Positions 1,711 to 5,615 of a stretch of DNA of 5,729 bases are shown here, one piece after another (the stretch's first letter is position 1; the number at the start of each line of letters is the position of its first letter). Location: positions 1 through 5,729 of the forward strand of contig CAKTZN010000119.1 of assembly GCA_934635545.1 (NCBI GenBank). Reading direction: 5' to 3'. The notes beneath the pieces are model-generated. The model was given only the letters and a program-made list of their open reading frames with translations. It ran no database searches and had not been told where the DNA came from. A program made the position numbers and the translations under genes. This DNA is from an uncultured Oscillospiraceae bacterium. Its GTDB lineage: Bacteria; Bacillota; Clostridia; Oscillospirales; Oscillospiraceae.

Positions 1711-2316
1711 TTACAGCTTCTCCAGCACCACCGGCTCTCCCACCTGCAAAGCATAGTGATAGATCCGGGCGCTGTCCTCGATGTACTGGGCGCGGGTGCG
1801 GGCCTCGTTCAGATCCTTGCCCACCGCCAGCACGCCGTGATTGTTCAGCAGGCAGCCACCCCGGCCATCCTTCAGGCAGGGCACCGCGTTCTCGCCCACG
1901 GCGAAAGTGCCGGGCGTGGCGTATTCGGCGCACGCCACGTCGCCGCCCAGGAATATCCGGGTCTCGATCAGCACCGAGGGGATGGGCTTATGCACCACGG
2001 CAAAGGCCGTGGCATAGGGGGAATGGGTGTGGAAAATAGCCTTGTGCTCCGGATAGGCCCGATAGACGGCGGCGTGCATCCGCCACTCGCTGGAGGGCTG
2101 CAATTCGCCCTCGATAATGTTGCCGTCCAGGTCGCACCGGACGATATCCACCGGCCGCATCACCGTATAGCGTACCGATGTGGGGGTGATCAGCATAGTG
2201 CCGTCCCCCAGCGCCACACTGAGATTGCCGCTGGTACCGGTGAACATCCCCTCATGCAGGGATTCCAGGCACACGTCCACCATTTCCTGCCGCAGTTCCT
2301 TGTGAGAATACTCCAT
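1711..2316 (-). CDS. Class II (zinc) aldolase, FucA-like; probable 5-modified ribulose-1-phosphate aldolase
   Basis: This 201-residue protein belongs to the class II aldolase/adducin family. It keeps the L-fuculose-phosphate aldolase signature: TGTSGN (26-31) for phosphate and backbone binding, ITPT (43-46), PSSEWRMH (74-81) with Glu77 at the position of FucA catalytic Glu73, the zinc ligands His96 and His98 in HTHS, and the third ligand His160 in NNHG. Length is close to FucA (215). Family members split ketose-1-phosphates to dihydroxyacetone phosphate and an aldehyde. As the last gene of an operon behind an MtnA-like isomerase, the likely substrate is 5-methylthioribulose-1-phosphate or 5-deoxyribulose-1-phosphate. 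The alternative is MtnB dehydratase, which shares the fold; the FucA-type PSSEWR block argues for aldolase. Start: AGAGG lies 7 bases before this ATG, and an upstream in-frame ATG at 2415 falls within the preceding gene. A 40-base AT-rich gap separates it from the isomerase gene. Confidence 0.85.
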   Translation of the reverse strand: MEYSHKELRQEMVDVCLESLHEGMFTGTSGNLSVALGDGTMLITPTSVRYTVMRPVDIVRCDLDGNIIEGELQPSSEWRMHAAVYRAYPEHKAIFHTHSPYATAFAVVHKPIPSVLIETRIFLGGDVACAEYATPGTFAVGENAVPCLKDGRGGCLLNNHGVLAVGKDLNEARTRAQYIEDSARIYHYALQVGEPVVLEKL

Positions 2317-2356
2317 TCTATCGCCTCTTTCGATTATTAAATAATTATTTTGTATC

Positions 2357-3424
2357 TCAAACCACCATCTCATAGGGCCCCAATTCGCTGACCTCCAGAT
2401 ACTTCTGCAGGTCATAGGGGGAGTAGATGCCCAGATCGGTCACCACGCCGGTGATCAACTGGGGCGGCGTGATGTCGAAGGCGGGATAATAGCCCTTCAC
2501 GCCGTCTGCCGCCGTCTTGACCCCCATAGCCTCCAGGGTATCCTGGGGGTTGCGCATCTCAATGTGGACGGTGTCCACCGTGGGATGGCCCTTGTCGGGG
2601 ATGCCGCTGATATACACCGGTACGCCCAGATAGTTGGCGGCGATGGAGATCTGGAAGGTGCCCACCTTGTTGGCGATATAGCCGTCGCAGCAGATGGCGT
2701 CGGCGGCGCAGGTGAATACATCCACATGCTCGTGCTGCATCACATAGGCGGGCATGTTGTCGGTGATGACCGTCACGTCAAAGCCCATGTCGTGGCACAC
2801 GGTGGCCGTCAGCCGCGCCCCCTGGAAATAGGGGCGGGTCTCCGGGCAGAACAGCCGGATATTTTTGCCCCGCTCCCGGCACTCCTTCAGCATCATAGCC
2901 AGGATGGTCTCGGCAAAGCACTGGGTCATAACGGTGCCGTTGTCGGGGAACTTGTCCACCAGATGCTTGGCCATCTGGCCCACCCGGTTATAGCGGCGGT
3001 TGTTGGTGGCCACAGTATAGTCCCGGATGGCCAGCGCCACATCGGGGACACCCTGGGCAATGGCGGCCTTTGCCGCCTCCAGGCAGCCGCCGCAGATGAG
3101 CTGCATCCGTCCCACGGTGGTAGGCCGGGCGTGGGAGATGGTGTCCATGGCCTGCTCCAGATAGGCCACCTGCCGCTCCGCCGTCATGTCCCGGCACTCC
3201 CAGGCCGCCAGCGCCATACCCATGGCGGCGGCGGTGAAGGGGCCGGTGGACTGGGTCACCATGTCCGTCAGCGCCTGGGCCACCTCGCCGTGGGTGCGGC
3301 AGGTGACGAACTCCACCCGCCGGGGATACACCCGGCGATCCAGGATCCGCACCTGGCCGCTGTCGTACCAGGCCACGTTTTCATACTGCATCATAAAGGC
3401 AAGGCCTTTGTCCGCTCTTTCCAT
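2357..3424 (-). CDS. mtnA: MtnA-like isomerase (eIF-2B alpha/beta/delta family), probable 5-methylthioribose-1-phosphate or 5-deoxyribose-1-phosphate isomerase
   Basis: The family converts 5-methylthioribose-1-phosphate (aldose) to 5-methylthioribulose-1-phosphate (ketose). The 355-residue length fits MtnA. The C-terminal Rossmann-like half is well kept: Cys169 in VMTQCFAET (equivalent to B. subtilis Cys160), ETRPYFQGARLTA (195-207), ITDNMPA (220-226), Asp242 in CAADAI (equivalent to Asp240), and DGYIANKVGTF (247-257) followed by a GVPVYIS stretch. The N-terminal half is divergent: the usual VVRGAPAIG-type motif is replaced by TQSTGPFTAAAMG (57-69), and THCNAG around the cysteine has become TQCFAE. 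A changed substrate is therefore possible, and ribose-1,5-bisphosphate isomerase belongs to the same superfamily. Start: a GAGGAG site lies 9 bases upstream. It begins 17 bases after the deaminase stop, in the same operon. The family is confident; the exact substrate is inferred from context. Confidence 0.82.
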   Translation of the reverse strand: MERADKGLAFMMQYENVAWYDSGQVRILDRRVYPRRVEFVTCRTHGEVAQALTDMVTQSTGPFTAAAMGMALAAWECRDMTAERQVAYLEQAMDTISHARPTTVGRMQLICGGCLEAAKAAIAQGVPDVALAIRDYTVATNNRRYNRVGQMAKHLVDKFPDNGTVMTQCFAETILAMMLKECRERGKNIRLFCPETRPYFQGARLTATVCHDMGFDVTVITDNMPAYVMQHEHVDVFTCAADAICCDGYIANKVGTFQISIAANYLGVPVYISGIPDKGHPTVDTVHIEMRNPQDTLEAMGVKTAADGVKGYYPAFDITPPQLITGVVTDLGIYSPYDLQKYLEVSELGPYEMVV

Positions 3425-3441
3425 TTTCGTTTTCTCCTCTC

Positions 3442-4731
3442 TTATGCGCCGTACAGCCGCTCTGCGGCGGCGCGGGCCTCATACAGCACCCGCTCCTTGT
3501 CCAGCGTCAGGTATTCTCCGTTTTCATACAGCACCCTGCCGTCCACCATGGTCATGCACACGTCGGCGGCCTGGGCACTGTATACCGCAAGGCCCGCCGT
3601 GTCCAGATGGGGACAGAGATGGGGCGCGCTCAGGTCGATGGCCATGATGTCCGCCCGCTTTCCGGCCTGGATAACGCCGGTGTCATCCCGGCCCTGCAGT
3701 CTCGCGCCGCCGGCCGTGGCCATGTCCAGCACCTGACCAGCCGGTAAGATCGCCGCGTCGTGGTGATAGCCGTTGTGAAGGATGGCCGCCAGATGCAGCT
3801 CCTCCAGCATGTTCAGGTTGTTGTTGCTGGCCGCGCCGTCGGTGCCCAGCGCCACATTGACGCCCTCCGCCAGCAGCGCGGGAACCGGGGCGAAGCCGCT
3901 GCCCAGCTTCATGTTGCTGGTGGGGTTGTGGATGACACTGACGCCCTTTTGCCGCAGCAGCGCCCGATCCGCCTCCGTCACCCACACGCAGTGGGCTGCG
4001 GCACAGGGCACGTCAAACACCCCAAGATCGTTCATCCACGCCGCTGGGGTCTTGCCGTATTTTTCGAGGCAGCCGTCGTGCTCGCTTTTCGTCTCGCTGA
4101 GATGGATGTGCATCCGCGCACCATTCCGGCGGCACCACGCCGCCGTTCCCGCCGCCACGTCGGGATTGCAGGTATACTCGGCGTGAAGGCAGCCCTCCAC
4201 CCGGATGCGGCCGTCGGCGGCATTGTGCCAGTCATGGTAAAACCGCTCCAGCTTGCGGGCGCCCTCATTCTTTTCATAGGTGTCCGCAGGGTCGAAGGCC
4301 TGCACCGGATAGCAGAGGTTGGCCTTGATGCCGCACTCCGCCGCCAGCTCCGCCGCCTCCCACGGGAAGAAGTACATGTCAGAAAAGCTGGTGGTGCCGC
4401 AGGCAAGCATTTCCAACAGCGCCAGCGCCGTACCGGCCCGGATGTCCGCCGCCGTCATGCGGCCCTCCACCGGGAACACGCTGTCAAACAGCCACCTCTG
4501 CAGTGGGAGGTCGGTACCCACGCCCCGCAGCAGCGTCATGGCGGCGTGGGTATGGGCGTTCACCAGTCCCGGCAGCAGCAGCCTGCCGGACATATCCTTC
4601 TCACAGTCAAAGTTCCCCTCCGGACGGGCAGCGCCCACATAGGTGATCACCGGGCCATCAATGGCCACGAAGCCGCCCTGGATCACGCCGCCGGGCGTAT
4701 AGACCCAGGCGTTTTTCAGTAACGTGGTCAT
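3442..4731 (-). CDS. mtaD: 5-methylthioadenosine / S-adenosylhomocysteine deaminase (amidohydrolase)
   Basis: This family hydrolytically deaminates MTA, SAH and, in some members (M. jannaschii DadD), 5'-deoxyadenosine, giving the inosine analogue and ammonia. The 429-residue protein has the full metal and catalytic set of the TM0936-type amidohydrolase barrel: PGLVNAHTHAAMTLLRG (54-70) with His60 and His62; Glu89; GTTSFSDMY (112-120); His183 in HAEYTC; HIHLSET (208-214) with ligand His210 and catalytic Glu213; His247 in AAHCVWV; NPTSNMKLGSG (269-279); and Asp298 in GTDGAASNNNLNM. The N-terminal 50 and C-terminal residues form the usual small beta domain. The relative chlorohydrolase/guanine deaminase branches are less likely given the GTDGAASNNNLNM block. 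The ATG lies 4 bases after the phosphorylase stop with GAGG inside that gene's end, so translation is probably coupled. No signal peptide, so cytosolic. Real substrates (MTA, SAH or 5'-deoxyadenosine) cannot be separated by sequence. Confidence 0.9.
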   Translation of the reverse strand: MTTLLKNAWVYTPGGVIQGGFVAIDGPVITYVGAARPEGNFDCEKDMSGRLLLPGLVNAHTHAAMTLLRGVGTDLPLQRWLFDSVFPVEGRMTAADIRAGTALALLEMLACGTTSFSDMYFFPWEAAELAAECGIKANLCYPVQAFDPADTYEKNEGARKLERFYHDWHNAADGRIRVEGCLHAEYTCNPDVAAGTAAWCRRNGARMHIHLSETKSEHDGCLEKYGKTPAAWMNDLGVFDVPCAAAHCVWVTEADRALLRQKGVSVIHNPTSNMKLGSGFAPVPALLAEGVNVALGTDGAASNNNLNMLEELHLAAILHNGYHHDAAILPAGQVLDMATAGGARLQGRDDTGVIQAGKRADIMAIDLSAPHLCPHLDTAGLAVYSAQAADVCMTMVDGRVLYENGEYLTLDKERVLYEARAAAERLYGA

Positions 4732-4735
4732 GCCC

Positions 4736-5557
4736 TTACATCCTCGCCAGCACTTTTTTCAGGTACGCGCTGAAGTTGTCGGCCACCAGATGGCCCACCT
4801 CGTTGACCTCCTCATCGCTGAGGGGCTGATCCAGAATCCCCGCCGCCATGTTGGTGATGACGGAGAAGCCCAGGCAGGGCATGCCGCAGTGGGCCGCCGT
4901 CAGCGCCTCGGTCACGGTGGACATACCCACCGCGTCGCCGCCCAGGGTGCGGATGGCGCGGATCTCTGCCGGTGTCTCGAACTGCGGGCCCTGCATGAAG
5001 AAATAGCACCCCTCATGGAAGGTCAGGCCGCTGCCCTGGGCACACTCACGGGCGATGGCACGCAGCTCGGGGCTGTACATTTTCTGCACGTCGAAAAACC
5101 GGGGGCCGAACTCCGGAATATTGGGGCCTCGCAGCGGAGAATAGCCCGGCAGCATGATCTGATCGTTGATGATCATGATGTCGCCGGGCTTGTAGCCCAG
5201 GTTCACACCCCCGGCGGCGTTGGTCAGGATCACGGCACGGCAGCCCAGCAGCTTGAACAGCCGGATGGGCGCCGTCAACTGCGGAAAGTCATACCCCTCG
5301 TAGGAGTGAAACCGCCCGGACATGCACACCACCTTCTTGCCGGCGATGGTGCCGCAGATCAGCTTCCCGGCGTGGGTGGCCACGGTGGAGCGCAGGAAAT
5401 TGGGGATGTCCTCATAGGGGATCACCACCGGGTTTTCCACCTGGGCGGCAAAGGGGCCCAGGGACGAGCCCAGGATAATGCCGATCTCCGGCTGAAAGTC
5501 CAGCTTTTCCCGGACATACCGGGCGCTTTTCTCGAAAAATTCATAGGTATATTCCAT
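4736..5557 (-). CDS. punA: Purine nucleoside phosphorylase, trimeric PNP/MTAP family (inosine-type)
   Basis: The enzyme splits purine nucleosides with phosphate to free base and ribose-1-phosphate in the cytosol. The 273-residue product has the trimeric PNP motifs: GSSLG (30-34), GRFHSYEGY (81-89, His84 and Tyr86), TNAAGG (112-117), GPQFETPAE (190-198, Glu194), GDAVGMSTV (207-215, Met212) and VITN (233-236). Spacing from Glu194 to Met212 to Asn236 equals human Glu201, Met219 and Asn243. Asn at this site marks 6-oxopurine (inosine/guanosine) specificity; MTA phosphorylases have Asp. Asp248 stands where human PNP and, from memory, bacillary PNPs have the His (human His257) that contacts the ribose 5'-OH. 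With a deaminase next door, a methylthioinosine or 5'-deoxyinosine role is plausible; ordinary inosine/guanosine salvage is the simpler alternative. It is the first gene of the operon. Start: AGGAGG 7 bases upstream; the in-frame ATG at 5605 lies in the promoter. Confidence 0.92.
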   Translation of the reverse strand: MEYTYEFFEKSARYVREKLDFQPEIGIILGSSLGPFAAQVENPVVIPYEDIPNFLRSTVATHAGKLICGTIAGKKVVCMSGRFHSYEGYDFPQLTAPIRLFKLLGCRAVILTNAAGGVNLGYKPGDIMIINDQIMLPGYSPLRGPNIPEFGPRFFDVQKMYSPELRAIARECAQGSGLTFHEGCYFFMQGPQFETPAEIRAIRTLGGDAVGMSTVTEALTAAHCGMPCLGFSVITNMAAGILDQPLSDEEVNEVGHLVADNFSAYLKKVLARM

Positions 5558-5586: not shown

Positions 5587-5615
5587 ATTTTACCACACCG
5601 GCCACATGGTGTCAA
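5587..5615 (-). promoter_or_regulatory. Sigma-A-type promoter of the four-gene nucleoside operon
   Basis: On the minus strand a perfect TTGACA (5615-5610) is followed after 17 bases by TAAAAT (5592-5587). Predicted start is near 5580, with a leader of only about 22 bases to the start codon, leaving no room for a riboswitch. A short dyad, ACACC (5595-5599) and GGTGT (5608-5612), sits in the spacer and could be a repressor site, but its arms are only five bases. Confidence 0.75.

Follow-up and report, generated by a model that had tools for sequence, protein, structure and literature searches.

The 5,729-nucleotide (nt) contig CAKTZN010000119.1 of an uncultured Oscillospiraceae bacterium, hereafter the window, carries four genes arranged head to tail on the minus strand. 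In the direction of transcription, they encode a class-I purine nucleoside phosphorylase (PNP, P0001; positions 4736-5557, 273 amino acids), a predicted amidohydrolase of the type acting on 5'-methylthioadenosine (MTA), S-adenosylhomocysteine (SAH), or 5'-deoxyadenosine (the deaminase, P0004; 3442-4731, 429 amino acids), a predicted sugar-1-phosphate isomerase of the MtnA family (P0003; 2357-3424, 355 amino acids), and a class II aldolase resembling FucA and DrdA (P0002; 1711-2316, 201 amino acids). The genes are separated by 4, 17, and 40 nt, as a first-pass annotation of the window reported, and likely belong to one operon. That annotation also placed a single promoter ahead of them, where we found a promoter-like site, TTGACA-17 nt-TAAAAT, with a TG before the -10 element (5587-5615, minus strand; 11 of 12 matches). 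Its -35 element is the same in all three relatives aligned (L001, L002, and L003). The window holds 8 promoter-like sites in all, against a mean of 2.0 (standard deviation 1.7) in shuffled sequences. We propose, with a probability of about 65%, that this operon encodes a deamination-first dihydroxyacetone phosphate (DHAP) shunt, with 5'-deoxyadenosine as its likely endogenous substrate.

We infer the four steps of this route from protein families, residues, and gene company. The deaminase would convert 5'-deoxyadenosine to 5'-deoxyinosine, which the PNP would split with phosphate, and without spending ATP, into hypoxanthine and 5-deoxyribose-1-phosphate. The MtnA-like isomerase would turn the latter into 5-deoxyribulose-1-phosphate, and the aldolase would cleave this into DHAP and acetaldehyde. 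MTA would enter in the form of methylthioinosine (MTI), either as a side substrate or after uptake from outside, and would yield methylthioacetaldehyde. A broader claim, that Oscillospirales-type anaerobes dispose of the waste of radical S-adenosylmethionine (radical-SAM) enzymes by a dedicated system that deaminates and then phosphorolyses, seems to us evenly balanced between true and false.

The order of the first two reactions follows from the type of PNP. The protein exceeds the cut-off of TIGR01700 (PNP-I, inosine/guanosine; 311 bits against 293) but reaches neither that of the MTA phosphorylase model (84 against 275) nor that of the MTI phosphorylase model NF006599 (64 against 223). The excerpted text of PMC10226123 describes, for human PNP, a Glu and an Asn that bind the purine, and places the histidine considered below in the pocket. 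The purine-binding Glu and Asn are kept in all aligned PNP rows of the loci L001-L080 (see below). With E194 and N236 as its base site, the window's PNP is by sequence of the hypoxanthine/guanine (6-oxopurine) type, so that deamination would have to precede phosphorolysis, which bears out the reaction order given in the first-pass annotation. At the 5' end of the substrate, the window's PNP has an aspartate, D248 (codon GAT at 4814-4816, minus strand), where the solved relatives 8swu and 3la8 have a histidine in PDB alignments. We take this place to be that of His257 in human PNP, which presumably contacts the 5'-hydroxyl. A hypoxanthine-type base site combined with the lack of the 5'-hydroxyl-facing histidine is the reason for the second step as we draw it, and makes the enzyme a predicted 5'-deoxyinosine (and 5'-methylthioinosine) phosphorylase.

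The histidine is missing well beyond the window. Relatives were sampled in two ways, with genes in their loci called by codon scoring. The isomerase-anchored sample consists of the best 80 (L001-L080) of 529 isomerase relatives among pattern-matched stretches, many of them on short contigs. The PNP-anchored sample covers 197 genomes of one order, 95 of them with a PNP, and 94 of 97 places were fetched (L129-L222). In the first, 43 of the 47 PNPs lack the histidine, two of the 43 being a doubled copy in L004; the four that have it belong to Chloroflexi-type loci (L048, L051, L056, and L057), where the gene follows the aldolase and is encoded on the opposite strand. Across the order, it is absent from 54 of the 62 PNPs that adjoin a deaminase, against 10 of the 30 without one. 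All 52 PNPs whose neighboring deaminase shares 40% identity or more with P0004 lack it, against 2 of 10 where the identity is lower, and each of the six genomes of this sample with a close isomerase has a PNP without it. As to the doubling, L004 (positions 1-7260) is a short contig in which the PNP-deaminase-isomerase set is present twice as an inverted repeat, probably an assembly artefact.

The other three proteins are placed less sharply by family models. The residues expected to take part in catalysis are present in the deaminase (H60, H62, H210, E213, H247, and D298), the isomerase (C169 and D242), and the aldolase (E77, H96, H98, and H160), as they are in the PNP (H84, E194, and N236). 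The deaminase matches Amidohydro_1 of Pfam. It is homologous over most of its length to MTA/SAH-type deaminases and reaches no cut-off among the 25 NCBIfam models listed. The best of these is PRK06038, which we take to be the methanogen family holding DadD, and the models for 5'-deoxyadenosine deaminase and MTA/SAH deaminase rank fourth and fifth. Its best solved relatives include 4f0r, an MTA/SAH deaminase, and 4dyk/4gbd, presumably the MTA deaminase of Pseudomonas aeruginosa. The isomerase passes the MtnA subfamily model PRK05720 (323 bits against 271). Its counterparts in L001 and L002 are 90 and 91% identical to it, and both loci keep the four operon genes and the two flanking genes. Isomerases of the window's kind are rarer in the order sample, with any match in 55 of the 197 genomes and a close one in 6. 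In L038 and L072, a carbon-nitrogen hydrolase gene (the L038 member was scanned) lies directly ahead of an isomerase without other partners.

The aldolase matches Aldolase_II of Pfam and, like the deaminase, reaches no cut-off among the 25 NCBIfam models listed. Searched alone against PDB sequences, it scores 122 bits with 4c25, 118 with 1fua, and 115 with 6btd, so that FucA is not separable from DrdA. A profile of 22 operon aldolases separates them somewhat better, giving 191 bits for 4c25 (FucA of Streptococcus pneumoniae), 180 for 6btd (DrdA of Bacillus thuringiensis; PMC6079011, in its excerpted text), 154.5 for 1fua (FucA of Escherichia coli), and 104 for the epimerase AraD (1jdi). The metal motif of P0002, HTHSPYA, is that of DrdA in the alignments and differs from those of both FucAs.

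Evidence for a single pathway comes from the company that these genes keep, as judged from their sequences. Within 5 kb of the isomerase and on the same strand, the 80 loci have a deaminase in 56 cases, a PNP in 41, an aldolase in 21, and PNP with deaminase in 33; in 55, no more than 300 nt separate deaminase and isomerase. Of the 46 loci whose sequence extends at least 5 kb to either side, 35 have a deaminase, 26 a PNP, 15 an aldolase, 5 all four genes, and 4 none of the partners. In the PNP-anchored sample, an isomerase lies within 4 kb in 9 places, always with just 26-31% identity to P0003; 8 of these also have a deaminase, 4 an aldolase, and 3 all four kinds. The three differ in arrangement. 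L172 has the order deaminase-PNP-isomerase-aldolase, with overlapping frames for PNP/isomerase and isomerase/aldolase; L204 has PNP-isomerase-deaminase-aldolase, with overlaps of 8 and 4 nt; and L219 holds all four kinds with a divergent aldolase. In L172 and L204, the isomerase exceeds the cut-off of the MtnA equivalog model TIGR00512 (396 and 404 bits against 279) and the PNP that of PNP-I. The close spacing of deaminase and isomerase and the return of the same four kinds in other orders argue that the set is not due to chance. This re-assembly, with isomerases that pass for MtnA, is the strongest sign that the four activities would form one pathway and that its sugar would be an MtnA-type 5-modified ribose-1-phosphate. 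Co-occurrence in relatives, which the first-pass annotation had named as a check, is thus found, and in other orders too. PNP and deaminase alone are paired much more often: 62 of 92 judgeable class-I PNPs in the order sample adjoin a deaminase of the MTA/5'-deoxyadenosine type, 8 of them with an isomerase near, and this pair seems to be the common core in the order sampled. The relatives of the operon come largely from animal guts. Further partner clusters were identified from one or two scanned members each. A TrmO-like (tRNA methyltransferase) cluster gene, identified from one scanned member (L044), stands directly before the deaminase in L044, L047, L061, and L065, and further upstream in L059.

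Which substrate feeds the operon can be approached from the gene content of the relatives. Family searches covered 50 of the genomes of the 80 loci (G-numbered below), with positive controls that match in 2 to 12 of 14 per family. Many of the 50 are metagenome-assembled genomes, so single absences mean little, but a complete absence means more. Two usual sources of MTA are the S-adenosylmethionine decarboxylase SpeD and the DTW enzymes. Neither was found in any of the 50 (controls, 8 of 14 and 2 of 14). The MTA/SAH nucleosidase, where present near the window's lineage, adjoins LuxS (G001-G009, G213, and G214, with a score slightly under the cut-off in G004). This is the arrangement expected if SAH is recycled, which would there go through nucleosidase and LuxS; LuxS occurs in 16 of the 50. 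These three observations together make 5'-deoxyadenosine the likely endogenous substrate. These bacteria are probably rich in radical-SAM enzymes. We infer that 5'-deoxyadenosine is the main substrate made in the cell, with no evident source of MTA. The first-pass annotation had allowed either compound; the former choice gains from these data, and MTA becomes doubtful as an endogenous substrate. It also expected mtnK and mtnD to be absent. MtnK was found in a single genome, and acireductone dioxygenase reached its cut-off in none, with 4 weak matches below it.

Several observations weigh against this reading, and those that favor a particular rival are taken up with it below. The isomerase of the window scores below the cut-off of TIGR00512 (193 against 279). 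Eight of the 62 deaminase-linked PNPs retain the histidine, those of L204 and L219 among them, and hence its loss is not required. The state of this residue changes 7 times on the PNP tree, and the link between histidine and deaminase is not significant once relatedness is counted (independent-pairs test, median p 1); of the 7 independent pairs with good support, an average of 1.6 show the trait changing in the same direction and 0.1 in the opposite one. The loss should hence be read as a clade-level sign and not as proof. Complete sets are also few: all four genes share one strand in 8 of the 80 loci (13 if strand is ignored), and 15 have no partner on either strand. Another difficulty is the nucleosidase, which is over its cut-off in 20 of the 50 genomes, including the two closest relatives, contrary to the absence of mtnN expected by the first-pass annotation. 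It could itself cleave 5'-deoxyadenosine. Still, lacking MtnK, the 5-deoxyribose that it released would have no evident further route. The joined DHAP shunt of the first-pass annotation thus keeps its reaction order, its co-occurring genes, and the near absence of MtnK, but not the absence of mtnN, and MTA is doubtful as its endogenous substrate.

The last step raises a doubt of its own. A close aldolase (at least 46% identical) occurs in 22 of the 50 genomes and is missing from 28, of which 23 have only a distant match (a short one in G236) and 5 have none. The loci L003 and L007-L010 have the same flanking genes as the window, but no aldolase at the locus and no close one in their genomes, which leaves the last step of the route uncertain there. 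The aldolase is the least conserved of the four members. Open frames of 404-480 amino acids with class II aldolase matches were seen in G217, G219-G221, G224, G227, G229, G234, G235, G240, G242, and G244, genomes that have no close aldolase. Two aldolase matches fall in one frame in G229 and G240, as well as in G012, G015, G216, and G218, which do have a close aldolase; such frames possibly encode two-domain aldolases. The aldolase gene of L005 (G004, contig C143, positions 112-693) has one in-frame TAG near the contig end.

The alternative that survives best, though we find it unlikely, is ordinary use of purine nucleosides, in which adenosine would pass through inosine, ribose-1-phosphate, and ribulose-1-phosphate to DHAP and glycolaldehyde. 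Its model is the haloarchaeal pathway for nucleosides with a ribulose-1-phosphate aldolase, a phrase not found in the literature among the matches listed. The PNP does pass a cut-off made for inosine/guanosine phosphorylases, and in 12 of 16 genomes no second class-I PNP was found. DeoD, the hexameric PNP, reaches its cut-off in just 4 of the 9 genomes nearest to the window (G001-G009) and not in the other 5. From these two counts, the operon PNP may also serve ordinary nucleosides. A Bmp/PnrA-like importer gene (one member scanned), which is present in 11 of the 80 loci and diverges from the PNP in 9 of these, would fit such a role, as would the haloarchaeal ribulose-1-phosphate aldolase model NF053831, which is the third best for P0002. 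However, that model is matched with 141 bits against a cut-off of 300, and 34 of the 50 genomes as a whole have a DeoD that reaches its cut-off. The loss of the 5'-facing histidine, whose four exceptions in L001-L080 lie on the other strand, and the presence of isomerases over the MtnA cut-off in the same place in L172 and L204 are also hard to reconcile with it. On these grounds, we rejected ordinary inosine use as the main function.

Salvage of MTA is a still less probable alternative. It would be an anaerobic methionine salvage in which MTA is turned into MTI and then into methylthioacetaldehyde and DHAP, with methanethiol recovered later. The solved relatives of the deaminase named above agree with this, and so does a gene resembling methionine gamma-lyase, under the gamma-lyase cut-offs, that separates isomerase and aldolase in 4 of the 80 loci (L014, 3173-3985; L016, 9381-10598; L017, 9090-10307; and L023, 1917-3125); in L016 and L017, it shares 4 nt with the aldolase gene. 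In those four loci it points to a methylthio branch, which also weighs against our main reading. No member of the gamma-lyase cluster is found in L001 or L002, though, and the window's own other genes encode a uridine kinase and a DUF218 protein. Because SpeD and the DTW enzymes are missing from the relatives searched, MTA was rejected as the main endogenous substrate.

The weakest candidate, highly improbable in our view, holds that the deaminase makes S-inosylhomocysteine from SAH, as happens in methanogens, and that the other genes serve general salvage; PRK06038 as the best model of the deaminase and an SAH hydrolase-cluster gene in 12 of the 80 loci (L030 member scanned), directly upstream of the deaminase in five (L048, L051, L056, L057, and L077), are in its favor, but we rejected SAH as the main substrate since SAH hydrolase is found in only 11 of the 50 genomes and in none of G001-G014, since G001-G009 instead carry the nucleosidase-LuxS pair, and since neither the MtnA-type isomerase nor the aldolase would be accounted for. 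An SAH hydrolase gene before deaminase, isomerase, and aldolase is possibly the mark of a combined operon for by-products of S-adenosylmethionine.

A deamination-first shunt for 5'-deoxyadenosine has parallels in several known systems, without matching any of them. The DHAP shunt and the disposal of 5-deoxyribose are encoded by clusters such as drdK-drdI-drdA and mtnK-mtnA-ald2 (PMC6079011 and PMC10986504, in their excerpted text). As there, a predicted MtnA-family isomerase is clustered with a class II aldolase, in the window and in the 21 of 80 loci counted above, and the predicted products are the same, DHAP with acetaldehyde or methylthioacetaldehyde. The known clusters, as far as the excerpts go, begin with a nucleosidase and a kinase or with a phosphorylase, and the phosphorylase of Clostridium phytofermentans is said to act directly on 5'-deoxyadenosine (PMC6079011). 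The window's operon, in contrast, has a deaminase, a hypoxanthine-type PNP, and no kinase; the text of PMC6079011 mentions a deaminase nowhere but among its references. With a PNP-I in place of the kinase or MTA phosphorylase, the operon would work like the DHAP shunt but in a form not described.

Deamination before phosphorolysis is itself known from the MTI pathway of P. aeruginosa, which uses an MTA deaminase and an MTI phosphorylase (PMC6302742, in excerpt). The deaminases are related (4dyk/4gbd), but the window's PNP fails the MTI phosphorylase model, and the isomerase-aldolase ending is not described for the P. aeruginosa pathway in the excerpts of that paper. Closer in chemistry is the 5'-deoxyadenosine route of Methanocaldococcus jannaschii, with DadD, MtiP, and MJ0454, for which the same excerpts propose an aldolase that would then give acetaldehyde and DHAP (PMC6302742). 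The likeness lies in a 5'-deoxyadenosine deaminase, a promiscuous phosphorylase (active on 5'-deoxyinosine in M. jannaschii), and an MtnA-type isomerase. As far as the excerpts go, that route is archaeal and pieced together from single enzymes with a hypothetical aldolase, whereas the window has all four genes in one bacterial operon. The haloarchaeal route already mentioned shares phosphorolysis and a class II aldolase leading to DHAP, but differs in its aldolase, whose model P0002 does not reach, and in that the window has an MtnA-type isomerase. Hence, the isomerase-aldolase end and the deamination-first handling of MTA are both known, and we found no published example of a bacterial four-gene operon joining them. 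In the open-licence literature, we found neither a deaminase in a DHAP-shunt operon nor a bacterial 5'-deoxyinosine phosphorylase.

To our knowledge, little has been established on the fate of 5'-deoxyadenosine in strict anaerobes. This compound is released by radical-SAM enzymes and inhibits them (PMC8102628, in excerpt). If our proposal is true, the route would save the energy of the glycosidic bond and recover hypoxanthine from the purine part and DHAP from the sugar part, needing neither ATP nor oxygen. It would also reveal a new specificity, that of a 5'-deoxyinosine phosphorylase, within a family annotated in databases as inosine/guanosine phosphorylase, and would call for corrected names for the isomerase and the aldolase.

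The two remaining genes of the window, for the uridine kinase and the DUF218 protein, lie downstream of the operon on the opposite strand. Folding of the RNA of positions 1595-1720 gave two hairpins on the minus strand between the operon and these genes. One, with a G+C-rich stem of 13 bp, stands directly past the aldolase stop codon (1665-1693), and the other, terminator-like with 20 bp, lies past the operon and ahead of the convergent DUF218 gene (1608-1651).

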